Under the pieces are notes generated by a model. It was not told where the DNA came from and did not search any database. It worked only from the letters and a program-made list of their open reading frames with translations. Position numbers and translations under genes: made by a program. Below, piece after piece: positions 1 to 20,257 of a stretch of 20,435 nucleotides of DNA. Source of the stretch: a virus. Numbering within the stretch: position 1 is the stretch's first letter; every line of letters begins with the position of its first letter. The stretch covers positions 1 to 20,435 of the IMG/VR virus record IMGVR_UViG_3300033146_002345; one strand, given 5' to 3'.

Positions 1-63
1 AGGGTTTTTTGAATCGAAATCTATATCTTCATCTTCATACAGATAAGGATTTATAACAAAAAA
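1..63 (-). CDS. -1 frame extension of the tail assembly chaperone (partial at window edge)
   Basis: The -1 frame after the slippery site encodes VINPYLYEDEDIDFDSKNP and runs off the left edge with no stop. The segment is acidic and probably helical, like the T-domain extension of other chaperone pairs, which contacts the tape measure protein. An ATG in this frame exists at 88-90, but no ribosome binding site precedes it, while nearly all other genes here have one. I therefore prefer expression by frameshifting. An independently started overlapping gene cannot be excluded because the rest of the frame is outside the window. Confidence 0.6.
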
Positions 64-824
64 TCGAGTATGTTTATACCTTCTTCCCATGTATTTTTAC
101 ATTTACTGCAAGTACATTTATAGCTAAAATCATACTTCGCAATTTTATCTATTTCTTTGAGTAAGATATTTCTATCTATTTTAACCATAGACTGAATATC
201 TTTTCTTGTTACTTTTTTCCCGCTTATATCTTTAACACAAGAAAATAATAGTTCTGTGCTGATATCATTGTACTTATCTTCTTTTAATAATTTTGTTATT
301 TTAGTTTGAAAATTCATATCAGTAGGAATTAGAGTTACACTTTTAACTCTTTTACCTTCTAATACAATTCCTCTTGCTAAAGTTACCTTTCGTGGATTTA
401 AAGTATCTCCATCCATAGTAATACCACTAATATCTATTTCACCTGTATAAGGTGCTTTGCATATATGTGTTTGCTCTCCTTCTGTAATCTCTGAGGGGCA
501 AAAAACATTTGTAAACTCGTAATTAGTACCGAGGGTTAGTTTTCTAATTGAAAAAATAATTTCGTCTACTACAGCTGAAGGTAGTGCTTTTAATTCTTCT
601 TCTGTAGGTAAATCTGTTGTTCCTGGTATTTCTACAATACATCTAGTTACAAGTTCTAAAAGCATTTTTGCTGGTGCGTTTTTAAACTTGTCTGTTGATA
701 ATACTTCTTCATCGAAGCCTGTTATCTCTCTAATTGTTACTTTATCGTACTTTACTTCATTAGCTATAATCTTTCCATCTTTAGATAAGGTAATAGTTTC
801 TTCTAAGCAATTTTCCATCTTCAT
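51..824 (-). CDS. Tail assembly chaperone / T4 gp26-like baseplate protein, zero-frame product
   Basis: This 257-residue protein follows the tail tube gene, where contractile-tailed phages keep the tail assembly chaperone that guides the tape measure protein before tube polymerisation. The C-terminus carries a cysteine cluster (C237, C239, C242, sequence CTCSKC) followed by an acidic and hydrophobic end (WEEGINILDFLL). Two further cysteines lie at about 109 and 122, so a metal site is possible. A Cys-rich end followed by Phe-Phe is what I recall of T4 gp26-like baseplate/chaperone proteins. The start ATG follows AGGAGA at good spacing. The gene ends on a slippery heptamer, so a longer -1 product is likely. 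The chaperone role rests mostly on position and the frameshift signal; a baseplate hub role is the alternative. Confidence 0.72.
   Translation of the reverse strand: MKMENCLEETITLSKDGKIIANEVKYDKVTIREITGFDEEVLSTDKFKNAPAKMLLELVTRCIVEIPGTTDLPTEEELKALPSAVVDEIIFSIRKLTLGTNYEFTNVFCPSEITEGEQTHICKAPYTGEIDISGITMDGDTLNPRKVTLARGIVLEGKRVKSVTLIPTDMNFQTKITKLLKEDKYNDISTELLFSCVKDISGKKVTRKDIQSMVKIDRNILLKEIDKIAKYDFSYKCTCSKCKNTWEEGINILDFLL
57..63 (-). other. Predicted -1 programmed ribosomal frameshift site (T TTT TTG)
   Basis: On the minus strand the last zero-frame codons are GAT TTT TTG TTA TAA, giving the X XXY YYZ heptamer T TTT TTG in the correct phase one codon before the stop. The same heptamer is the reported frameshift site of the phage P2 E/E' tail genes. 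After a -1 slip the reading frame continues with GTT ATA AAT CCT and stays open to base 1. Only 50 bases beyond the stop are visible, and I see no convincing stimulatory hairpin in them. Confidence 0.72.
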
Positions 825-1389: not shown

Positions 1390-2925
1390 TTATCCTACTT
1401 TAGGTGTTACATCGAACCAAACAAATTCAGCTGTTCCTAAATTGTTAATACCTAAAAGGCATCTTACAATCCCTGCGTCTTTCTCTGCTTGACCATTAAT
1501 ATCGCTATCAACTTTTACTGAGTAAGCTTTGTCTGTTGTGTCTCCGTCTAGCCCGCCTTCTAAATATCTTGTGTTAAGAATTTGATTAACTACACTTTTA
1601 ATATCATGCCACAATTTTGGACCGTTAGGTCTATGTACTGCCCAAAGTGTTCTAGCTAATACTCTAGCTTCTAAATCTGAAGTATTCCTTCTTGCGTTAA
1701 TATACAAGTAATCTTGCTTCTCTGTAATTGCGAGAGTACGAGAACCCCAAGGGCATACTCCGATGTCTGGAATATCTTTTAAACAGTTGATACCTAGTGC
1801 ATTTAATCTTCCTATTGCTTTAGCACTAATTGAGCTTTCTAATCCTGTAACATACTTTAATACTGCATGAGTACCTGAGGGGCTAAACCAAACACCTTTA
1901 GTAACATCGCTATCTGTTCTTGAGTAAACTCCTGCTATTGCACCTAAGGGTGAAATAACTGACCCGTCTTCTTGATTAACAACATACTTGTAGTATAAAG
2001 CACCTTTAGAGTTATCCCCTGAAGTTCCTACTCCTCCGAGTGAAGTTGTTCTAAAAGAAGTTATATCTGCTTCATCAATTCCTTCATCTCCAGTACATAT
2101 AATAAAGTTTACTGCACCTTCTGGCGTTTTAGTCCAGTCTAGTAATGCATTTACTACTACTGCATTTGAACTCATATCTGGCGAAAAAGTTACAAGTGGG
2201 CTAGGAATGTTATCGAATGCATGAAAACCTGTAAGAGCTTCTGTATCACCTGTGTAATCTGCGGCAACAATTCCTACTACCCCATCTTCACCTGAAGACA
2301 TAGTAACATCTGCTTGAGTTTGGTCTAAATTATCTACACCTAAACCTGCACTTAGCTTAATAAATAATGACTTATTGTTAATTACTGTCATTAAGTTATA
2401 AGAATCGCCTACAATTTCATTCAAGTTATTAAAAGTTGGCTCTAAAGGAATACCTGCTGAATCTGTAACTGTTAAGTTAAAGGAAGCTGGGTCTGCATTA
2501 GAAGCAGCCGATATAACAACTTTTATTGTGTTTCCGAAAGCACCTACACATCGTGCAGTTACTTTATACTTTTCTACTGGACTAGCATTATCATCCATTA
2601 GGCTACCTGTAGCTTTTACACCTGTTCCGGTTGTATTATCTGTAATTGTAGCGTAGTGTGTAATACGCTTAAACCACAAGTTCTTTCCACCGTTTTGAAA
2701 AAACTTTCTTACTTGAGTGTAAGAAGTATACCCTGTGGAAGCTTTAAACTCTTTTACCCATGCACTCAAAGAGGTACATAGTACTGGAACATCTTCTACT
2801 CCCCAGTCTGTTATCCCAAACATTGCTCCTACACCTGTGGCTACTACAGCCTTAGGTTCTGCGGGACTTGGTGTTTCGGTTAAATATACATTAGGCTCTA
2901 AACCTATAACATCTAAATTACTCAT
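1390..2925 (-). CDS. Contractile tail sheath protein
   Basis: This 511-residue protein has the typical length and ends of a phage tail sheath subunit, which stacks around the tail tube and contracts at infection. The N-terminus has the family pattern PNVYLTETPSP followed by the FGITDWG region. The C-terminal third has the hallmarks of the family: a PWGSRTL stretch, YLYINARRNTSDLEARVLA, LWAVHRPNGPKLWHDI, and a glycine-rich segment before a final beta strand (EFVWFDV). It establishes that the phage is a myovirus type or a related contractile particle. The ATG is preceded by AGGAGGAAT. The gene sits between the tail terminator and the tube. Confidence 0.95.
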   Translation of the reverse strand: MSNLDVIGLEPNVYLTETPSPAEPKAVVATGVGAMFGITDWGVEDVPVLCTSLSAWVKEFKASTGYTSYTQVRKFFQNGGKNLWFKRITHYATITDNTTGTGVKATGSLMDDNASPVEKYKVTARCVGAFGNTIKVVISAASNADPASFNLTVTDSAGIPLEPTFNNLNEIVGDSYNLMTVINNKSLFIKLSAGLGVDNLDQTQADVTMSSGEDGVVGIVAADYTGDTEALTGFHAFDNIPSPLVTFSPDMSSNAVVVNALLDWTKTPEGAVNFIICTGDEGIDEADITSFRTTSLGGVGTSGDNSKGALYYKYVVNQEDGSVISPLGAIAGVYSRTDSDVTKGVWFSPSGTHAVLKYVTGLESSISAKAIGRLNALGINCLKDIPDIGVCPWGSRTLAITEKQDYLYINARRNTSDLEARVLARTLWAVHRPNGPKLWHDIKSVVNQILNTRYLEGGLDGDTTDKAYSVKVDSDINGQAEKDAGIVRCLLGINNLGTAEFVWFDVTPKVG

Positions 2926-19069: not shown

Positions 19070-20257
19070 TTAAATTACCCCCGGGAAGTTGTTTTCTACT
19101 AATTCTGTACTATAACTTGCTGCTACTAAAATACCTTTAAATACTGTTGTTACTTCTTCTATCGTACTTTCTCCGCTTATTTCTGCTTGAACTATTTTAT
19201 CTTTATGTTCGTATCTAAGTGTTAGTACACCGTAATCTTGTTCACCCTTTATCCAAGGTCTATCTGGTTTATCACGCCAATCGCAGTCTTTTTTATTTTT
19301 AACCTTCTTGTCTCCTTGTGAGTTTATAGGCATTATTTTTAAGTCTTTTTTAGACTTAATTATATTTCGTTCATCTAATTTAATAGAAAAATCATCTTGG
19401 AATTTACGTTGAATTTCGTGCCCTTTCCCTAAATTTTTAGCTACTAATAGGATTACGTCCTTATACATTTTCAACCAACTACCCCCATTTAATGCTATTT
19501 TTTCAGCTTGTGCCTCTGTTAAGTTCTCCCACCACCTCACAGATTGGAGTTGACACCCTACCCTTATTTTGTTGGACCAAATGTCGCAAGCGTACTCTCC
19601 TAAGTGTAATTTTGCAAAAGCTGCATTCCGTAAATTAGCGTTCCGTAAATCAGCATTCTGTAAATTAGCATTCTGTAAATTAGCATTTTGTAAATCTGCA
19701 TTCTGTAAATCAGCATACTGTAAATTAGTGTCACGCAAATCAGCATTCTGTAAATTAGCATCTTGTAAATTAGCATTCTGTAAATCTGCATTCTGTAAAT
19801 CAGCATACTGTAAATTAGCGTTCCGTAAATCAGCATCACGCAAATCAGCATACTGTAAATCAGCATTCTGTAAATCAGCATTCTGTAAATTAGCATTCTG
19901 TAAATTAGCATTTTGTAAATCAACATACTGTAAATCAGCATTCTGTAAATCAGCATTCTGTAAATTAGTATCACGCAAATCAGCATTCTGTAAATCAGCA
20001 TTATATAAATCAGCGTCCTGTAAATTAGCGTTCCGTAAATCAGCATTCTGTAAATTAGCGTCCTGTAAATTAGTATCACGCAAATCAACATCACGCAAAT
20101 CAGCATACTGTAAATCAGCATTCTGTAAATCAACATTCTGTAAATTAGTGTCACGCAAATCAGCATTCTGTAAATTAGCTTTTTTGCCTTTTTCTCCCTT
20201 CATTAGCCATTTTTTATGCTCTTTTAGAATAATGTCCAATTTATCTTTCTTCATCAT
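19070..20257 (-). CDS. Pentapeptide repeat protein with a conserved-type C-terminal part
   Basis: This 395-residue protein contains 37 consecutive pentapeptides of the type A(D/N)LQN or A(D/N)LRD, about residues 27-211, which should form a right-handed four-sided beta helix. The N-terminus (KEHKKWLMKGEKGKK) is a short helix and basic stretch often found in phage pentapeptide proteins. After the repeats comes HLGEYACDIW and GCQLQSVRWWENLTE (about 215-250), also typical of phage members, followed by a Lys-rich linker and about 85 residues (DYGVLTLRYEHKDKIVQAEI and so on) not recognised. Repeat proteins of this family can mimic DNA or scaffold proteins; no role is proven here. The ATG is doubled; the first follows GAGGAGAAT. 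Confidence 0.82.
   Translation of the reverse strand: MMKKDKLDIILKEHKKWLMKGEKGKKANLQNADLRDTNLQNVDLQNADLQYADLRDVDLRDTNLQDANLQNADLRNANLQDADLYNADLQNADLRDTNLQNADLQNADLQYVDLQNANLQNANLQNADLQNADLQYADLRDADLRNANLQYADLQNADLQNANLQDANLQNADLRDTNLQYADLQNADLQNANLQNANLQNADLRNANLRNAAFAKLHLGEYACDIWSNKIRVGCQLQSVRWWENLTEAQAEKIALNGGSWLKMYKDVILLVAKNLGKGHEIQRKFQDDFSIKLDERNIIKSKKDLKIMPINSQGDKKVKNKKDCDWRDKPDRPWIKGEQDYGVLTLRYEHKDKIVQAEISGESTIEEVTTVFKGILVAASYSTELVENNFPGVI
19625..20179 (-). repeat. 37-unit 15-bp coding repeat array
   Basis: The pentapeptides are encoded by near-identical 15-bp units, roughly tgtaaatcagcattc on the plus strand, with a few variants (cacgc, taccg-like, tactg). The DNA is more uniform than the protein requires, suggesting that units have expanded or been homogenised by recombination or slippage. 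It is an open coding array, not a CRISPR: there are no unique spacers. Confidence 0.85.

Follow-up and report, generated by a model that had tools for sequence, protein, structure and literature searches.

A putative −1 frameshift at the end of a gp26-like tail assembly chaperone gene, in a family that appears to join its two domains in more than one way

We propose that gene 51..824 on the minus strand of IMG/VR record IMGVR_UViG_3300033146_002345 very probably gives rise, by −1 frameshifting at a T_TTT_TTG heptamer close to its stop codon, to a long form of a tail chaperone. The window, by which we mean the whole stretch of DNA analysed, is the complete record of 20,435 bp; its base 1 is a contig end, and it carries no terminal repeat. 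The initial annotation had taken the gene for a frameshifted tail assembly chaperone, a reading that comparison with relatives supports well. The features concerned are the following.

51..824, minus strand: predicted short tail assembly chaperone (TAC-N) of the gp26/PF12322 family, 257 aa, 0 frame
57..63, minus strand: slippery heptamer T_TTT_TTG, in phase, its TTT and TTG being 0-frame codons
51..53, minus strand: 0-frame stop codon TAA, one codon past the heptamer
1..96, minus strand: open −1 frame, running to the contig edge
1..57, minus strand: post-slip part of the −1 frame, the putative start of the long-form C-terminal extension, cut by the contig end
88..90, minus strand: ATG in the −1 frame, without a Shine-Dalgarno (SD) sequence and not conserved in relatives
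79..87, minus strand: purine-rich GGAAGAAGG, 15 nt upstream of the heptamer (weak)
99..116, minus strand: codons of C237, C239 and C242 (CTCSKC), paired with C109/C122
890..1369, minus strand: tail tube protein
1390..2925, minus strand: tail sheath protein

The chaperone gene and its slippery site

The 3' end of gene 51..824 reads ATA CTC GAT TTT TTG TTA TAA, which places the heptamer in slip phase before the TAA, as the initial annotation had stated. Its description of the −1 frame as acidic and open to base 1 is likewise borne out by the sequence: after the slip this frame reads VINPYLYEDEDIDFDSKNP, 19 codons, and since the window is the whole contig the extension is cut there. These 19 codons do not match the C-domain profile described below. 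A scan of IMG/VR found no record overlapping the left end of the window, and neither gene 51..824 nor the sheath, as close-relative queries for a left extension, led to an overlapping record. The +1 frame stops 16 nt beyond the stop of the gene. As to possible stimulators, the hairpin downstream of the slip site is weak (−7.3 kcal/mol, z −1.4), and GGAAGAAGG might conceivably act by pairing with the anti-SD sequence (−6.2 kcal/mol over 25 nt upstream), a weak candidate.

The window itself provides an estimate of how often such an arrangement would arise by chance. In-phase XXXYYYZ heptamers occupy 63 of the 5960 phased positions in its genes, and any such heptamer is expected within a 12-codon overlap in 12% of cases; T_TTT_TTN occurs at 4/5960 phased positions, and 0.8% is expected in a 12-codon overlap. 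At the composition of the window (32% GC) random sequence would keep an 18-codon frame open in about 19% of cases, and in 7 of the 28 other genes the −1 frame reaches equally far. The openness of the −1 frame is not significant, and the presence of any XXXYYYZ heptamer is only mildly unusual. These statistics are suggestive at best, and the case hence rests on conservation in relatives.

The order sheath, tube, gene 51..824 is as the initial annotation claimed; on the minus strand these three come after a portal, capsid and connector module. Sequence profiles and a predicted structure support the assignment of this gene to the T4 gp26 (PF12322) family of tail chaperones, in agreement with the gp26-like chaperone first suggested. 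With tblastn, gene 51..824 finds the Streptomyces phages LuckySocke, Alone3, BRock, GiJojo and pSt2308 (E 1e-6 to 5e-3); LuckySocke gp90, at E 1e-6, is itself a PF12322 match (7e-11), and LuckySocke, BRock and GiJojo share the order sheath, tube, chaperone relative, small ORF, long gene. A scan with tail tube proteins yielded a collection of loci (L numbers), of which 72 are viral and 56 come from bacterial genomes. A profile of the relatives built without the window finds the protein of gene 51..824 at E 9e-23, and one excluding all five −1 rows still does so at E 9e-19. The PF12322 (T4_baseplate) model gives no match at E<=1 to the window protein alone, whose link to the family runs through relatives that score high enough against the model (L003, L007, L077 and L004 lie above the cut-off, L002 exactly at it). 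Against PF10109 (Phage_TAC_7, the P2 E family) the window protein scores 21.2 bits (E 3e-4), below the cut-off of 25; a PHROGs search with the gene gave no useful match, and a search of solved structures by sequence gave nothing relevant.

The AlphaFold2 model of the window protein has a pLDDT of 91. In a search of BFVD it comes closest to T4-like ‘baseplate hub assembly’ proteins over the full length (E 3e-16, TM 0.7-0.8), a fold match that is not independent of sequence, as the model used family members as its alignment. Among solved structures the top match, over the first 100 residues, is the HK97 tail assembly chaperone 2OB9 (Foldseek probability 0.89, E 0.23), which carries the expected function and superposes with a modest Z of 5.4 (rmsd 3.6 over 85 residues). 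The initial annotation had also remarked on a Cys cluster as unusual for a small chaperone. The motifs (C237/C239/C242 and C109/C122) are real, but they are not odd, the paired Cys residues being near-invariant in the family: C109, C122 and C242 are invariant across 41 sequences. Together they likely form a zinc ribbon typical of the gp26/PF12322 family. At the other end of the window (19070-20257, minus strand) lies a 395-aa protein with a long run of near-identical pentapeptide repeats of the ADLQN/ANLQN type, which leave long open frames in the other frames and on the opposite strand.

Relatives with the C domain in the −1 frame

Thirteen distinct relatives belong to the −1 type, namely L002, L003, L007, L077, L078, L128, L129 and the T4-like L140-L145. 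The shifted frame extends 128-203 nt beyond the stop in 13/13 and contains a conserved ‘W/YS..EI..mP..ER’ domain. This part of the −1 frame is tens of codons long in the relatives, and wherever a tape-measure-like gene is visible the frame closes before or on reaching it; in L002, L003, L007 and L077 a long tape-measure-like ORF comes after the chaperone.

Two profiles of this C domain were used. Profile 1, made from the shifted-frame domain with L002, L003, L007 and L077 included, was searched against all frames of the loci, and it places the domain in the −1 frame of L002, L003, L007, L077, L078, L128 and L129. Profile 2 was rebuilt from +1 loci only and searched against 10,425 ORFs; its five best ORFs include the −1-frame ORFs of L129, L128, L007 and L078 (E 2e-4 to 4e-4), the fifth of the five being the fused L089. 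Lower down are L003 (E 0.007) and L142 (E 0.02), followed by L002 and L141 (E 0.2-0.3). The C domain is short and diverged, hence the modest single matches. The Pfam family DUF6760 is found in the −1 frame of L007 at E 8e-7.

The slip sites of the 13 relatives are T_TTT_TTY in 10 and G_GGG_GAA in two (L007 and L078), GGGGGAA being a motif reported to be common among annotated phage frameshifts (PMC10885494). T_TTT_TTC occurs in L002, L128 and L129, and L077 has T_TTT_TTT followed by T_TTT_TTC. We note that L003 (9264-9479) has a −1-frame C domain without a canonical heptamer, the sole candidate seen being GAT TTT GTC. Among the T4-like phages, the gp26 gene has T_TTT_TTC at its end in Sf-CH1b, S-PM2, P-HM2, Aeh1 and Mendera, and T_TTT_TTT in phiN3; a −1-frame C-domain match is found in Sf-CH1b, S-PM2, P-HM2, Aeh1 and phiN3, and in Mendera the −1 ORF is present but falls short of a C-domain match. 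Downstream hairpins are strong in L002, L128, L129, L141 and L142 (z −3 to −4.4) and weak in other loci, including the window; downstream structure and SD-like stimulators vary.

We also observed that the Clostridia MAG loci L128 (4481-4858) and L129 have a chaperone much shortened, to 126 aa, and have retained T_TTT_TTC, the −1 domain and the Cys motif near the C-terminus. In L141 (2214-2393, S-PM2 gp51), L142 and L143, what is labelled ‘gp51’ or ‘assembly catalyst’ is the −1-frame continuation of gp26; this cyanophage and Sinorhizobium phage gp51 sits behind T_TTT_TTC or T_TTT_TTT and is annotated as a separate gene. As host labels go, phiN3 is a Sinorhizobium phage, Aeh1 an Aeromonas phage and Mendera a Stenotrophomonas phage, and S-PM2, P-HM2 and Sf-CH1b are cyanophages.

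Relatives with a +1 frame or an in-frame fusion

Profile 1 locates the C domain in the +1 frame of some 60 loci, and about 50 Streptomyces-phage-like relatives carry it there. At the point of entry into the +1 frame, 46 of 48 distinct loci have an in-phase TTT followed by C, the exceptions being L060 and the L067-L069 group, with CTT_C; elsewhere in the +1 genes TTT accounts for 53/391 Phe codons. Re-pairing from UUU to UUC makes a perfect +1 slip; a −2 shift was considered for this group and rejected on pairing grounds, since it entails mismatches. The +1 frame has no start codon before +60 nt in 13/51 distinct loci and no SD-like start in 46/51, and SD-like stretches upstream show no consistent pattern across the +1 group (mean rank 0.36). 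In their public records LuckySocke, GiJojo and BRock have the C part as a hypothetical gene of its own, and pSt2308 has none annotated. On this comparison of sequences, it is likely that the Streptomyces-phage-like contractile phages have an unannotated +1 programmed frameshift in their gp26-like chaperones.

The ending YTG TTT CGC/CAG/CTC, together with a conserved +1-frame C domain, is shared by the chaperone genes of L004 (6640-6900, LuckySocke gp90/gp91), L005, L138, L139 and about 45 others within L010-L076. HSTV-2 had already been suggested as a myovirus with a +1 shift in its chaperone (PMC5009743); this phage, whose annotated two-piece chaperone has TCC TTT CGC near its end, was tried as a relative and rejected for want of an N-profile match. 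In the Streptococcus phage vB_SagM-GXN1 (L136, 3017-3383) a gp26-like gene carries TTC TTT CGT and a +1-frame ORF with a weak domain match (E 0.16-0.3). Its nearest row in the tree is L077, a −1 type, both branches being long, and it may represent a second origin of the +1 arrangement.

In a third set (L079-L127, L132 and L133; ~45 loci) the C-domain match lies at the end of an uninterrupted N-domain ORF that follows the tail tube gene. With both domains in one ORF, no frameshift is needed. Many of these loci are Proteobacteria genomes and MAGs, and the fused loci are probably contractile tail or injection systems. With profile 2, six loci of the bacterial-genome set, L128 and L129 being among that set, pass E 0.05, so that C-domain homology of the fused group is carried mainly by profile 1 together with DUF6760, which is found at the C-terminal end (residues 221-256) of the L088 fusion protein (E 2e-4).

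The −1, +1 and fused states are grouped on the tree, with 4 changes where the minimum is 2 and the shuffled mean 44.5, and the tree places of the window, L002, L003, L077, L144 and L136 are unsure, on long branches. The −1 slippage sites (T_TTT_TTN or G_GGG_GAA) are found in the window, in Bacillota/Clostridia elements and in T4-like phages. We think it probable that the members of a single chaperone family unite their two domains by no fewer than three routes (−1, +1 and fusion), the direction of the shift being evolutionarily switchable. The direction of programmed ribosomal frameshifting is held to be conserved among orthologs (PMC3711429), and the apparent occurrence of all three states within one family stands against that rule, although orthology across the members is arguable given their deep divergence. 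In the literature searched, which left out the study of T4-like chaperones by Vladimirov (2022), we found no paper on the +1 case in Streptomyces phages and no description of such three-way variation within one family.

Proposed mechanism, alternatives and known systems

We envisage that most ribosomes would stop at the TAA at 51..53 and so make the short form (TAC-N), the product of gene 51..824. A minority would move one base back on T_TTT_TTG, the two tRNAs re-pairing from TTT/TTG to TTT/TTT, and would go on in the −1 frame through a small domain at the C-terminus, which runs off the contig; the result would be the long form (TAC-NC). Judging from lambda gpG/gpGT and P2 E/E', both forms jointly would load the tape measure protein and recruit tube subunits; on the lambda model (PMC5009743) it would be the short form that coats the tape measure and the rarer long form that brings in tube subunits via its C domain. 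In the window phage the heptamer would then set the ratio of short to long form.

It is also conceivable that the −1 frame belongs to a small gene of its own, starting at ATG 88..90 and overlapping the end of the chaperone gene, with the heptamer an incidental stretch of poly-T. We regard this as quite unlikely. The in-frame ATG exists, but, as the initial annotation had pointed out, it has no ribosome binding site, and no SD sequence is present. In four of the −1 relatives (L002, L007, L077 and L078) the shifted frame lacks any start codon before +60 nt, and an SD-like start is absent in 12/13, so that the ATG is best read as incidental. The window has 32% GC, and some XXXYYYZ would indeed be expected within the overlap in 12% of cases; against this, T_TTT_TTY is found again at the equivalent position in members of about 15-25% identity. 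Similarly, gp26 and gp51 are separate genes in T4, and the S-PM2 and P-HM2 records annotate the downstream part as a gp51 of its own, but in other relatives the domain is fused in frame.

Even less probable, in our view, is slippage of RNA polymerase at the poly-T run, which would produce mRNAs longer or shorter by one base and a fusion made by normal translation. The window has only six T's, a shorter run than the 9-11 A that slip with high efficiency (PMC3711429), the +1 group has no more than TTTC, L007 and L078 carry GGGGGAA, and the sites preserve the phase that tandem tRNA slippage needs. Homopolymer runs are nonetheless known substrates, and transcriptional slippage has been inferred where one gene family shows both directions (PMC3711429), as the chaperone family does. 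We give just as little credence to chance, that is, to an ordinary gene end whose −1 frame happens to be open to the contig edge: frames this open are as common in random sequence and in the other genes of the window as given above, but chance would have to account for a P2-type heptamer in the last codons and for the fact that each of the 13 distinct −1 relatives examined continues in the shifted frame. We retain −1 ribosomal frameshifting as the preferred reading.

Contractile phages in which the chaperone gene ends with a −1 frameshift are already known: P2 is one, and there are other myophages (PMC12846349). The window is a diverged addition, a long chaperone with a likely zinc ribbon. The comparison across the family weighs more than the window itself, for a −1 shift, a +1 shift or no shift would lead to the same two-domain product, and the family makes a change of direction at a recoding site testable. 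Frameshifted chaperone genes are mis-split in annotation, and a simple rule may serve to find unannotated ones: a gp26-like gene followed by a shifted-frame ‘W..EI..m...ER’ domain.

Among known systems, the T4-like phages S-PM2, P-HM2, Sf-CH1b, phiN3, Aeh1 and Mendera, with gp26 and a downstream gp51, have the protein family of the window and a C domain or conserved ORF in the −1 frame, although they are distant from it in sequence; T4 itself was rejected as a frameshift case, having neither a slip site nor a gp26/gp51 overlap. The Vandenendeviridae and Andersonviridae, contractile phages with a proposed −1 frameshift at a conserved GTTTTT, resemble the window in the T run at the end of a short chaperone gene (PMC12846349). 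Lambda gpG/gpGT is a two-form chaperone produced by low-level −1 frameshifting (PMC5009743). The HK97 chaperone provides the fold (2OB9) nearest to the N-terminus of the window protein. Lambda and HK97 differ from the window in their non-contractile tails and much smaller proteins, and their slip sequence is a different one. In P2 the annotated frameshift site of E/E' is T_TTT_TTG, in phase and identical to that of the window, as the initial annotation had stated; P2 shares with the window the order sheath, tube, chaperone, with the tape measure next in P2, where the small C-terminal extension carries an ‘FHWPPSEL’ motif and overlaps the tape measure start. P2 E has 91 aa, whereas the product of the window gene has 257 aa with Cys motifs and is weakly PF10109-like.
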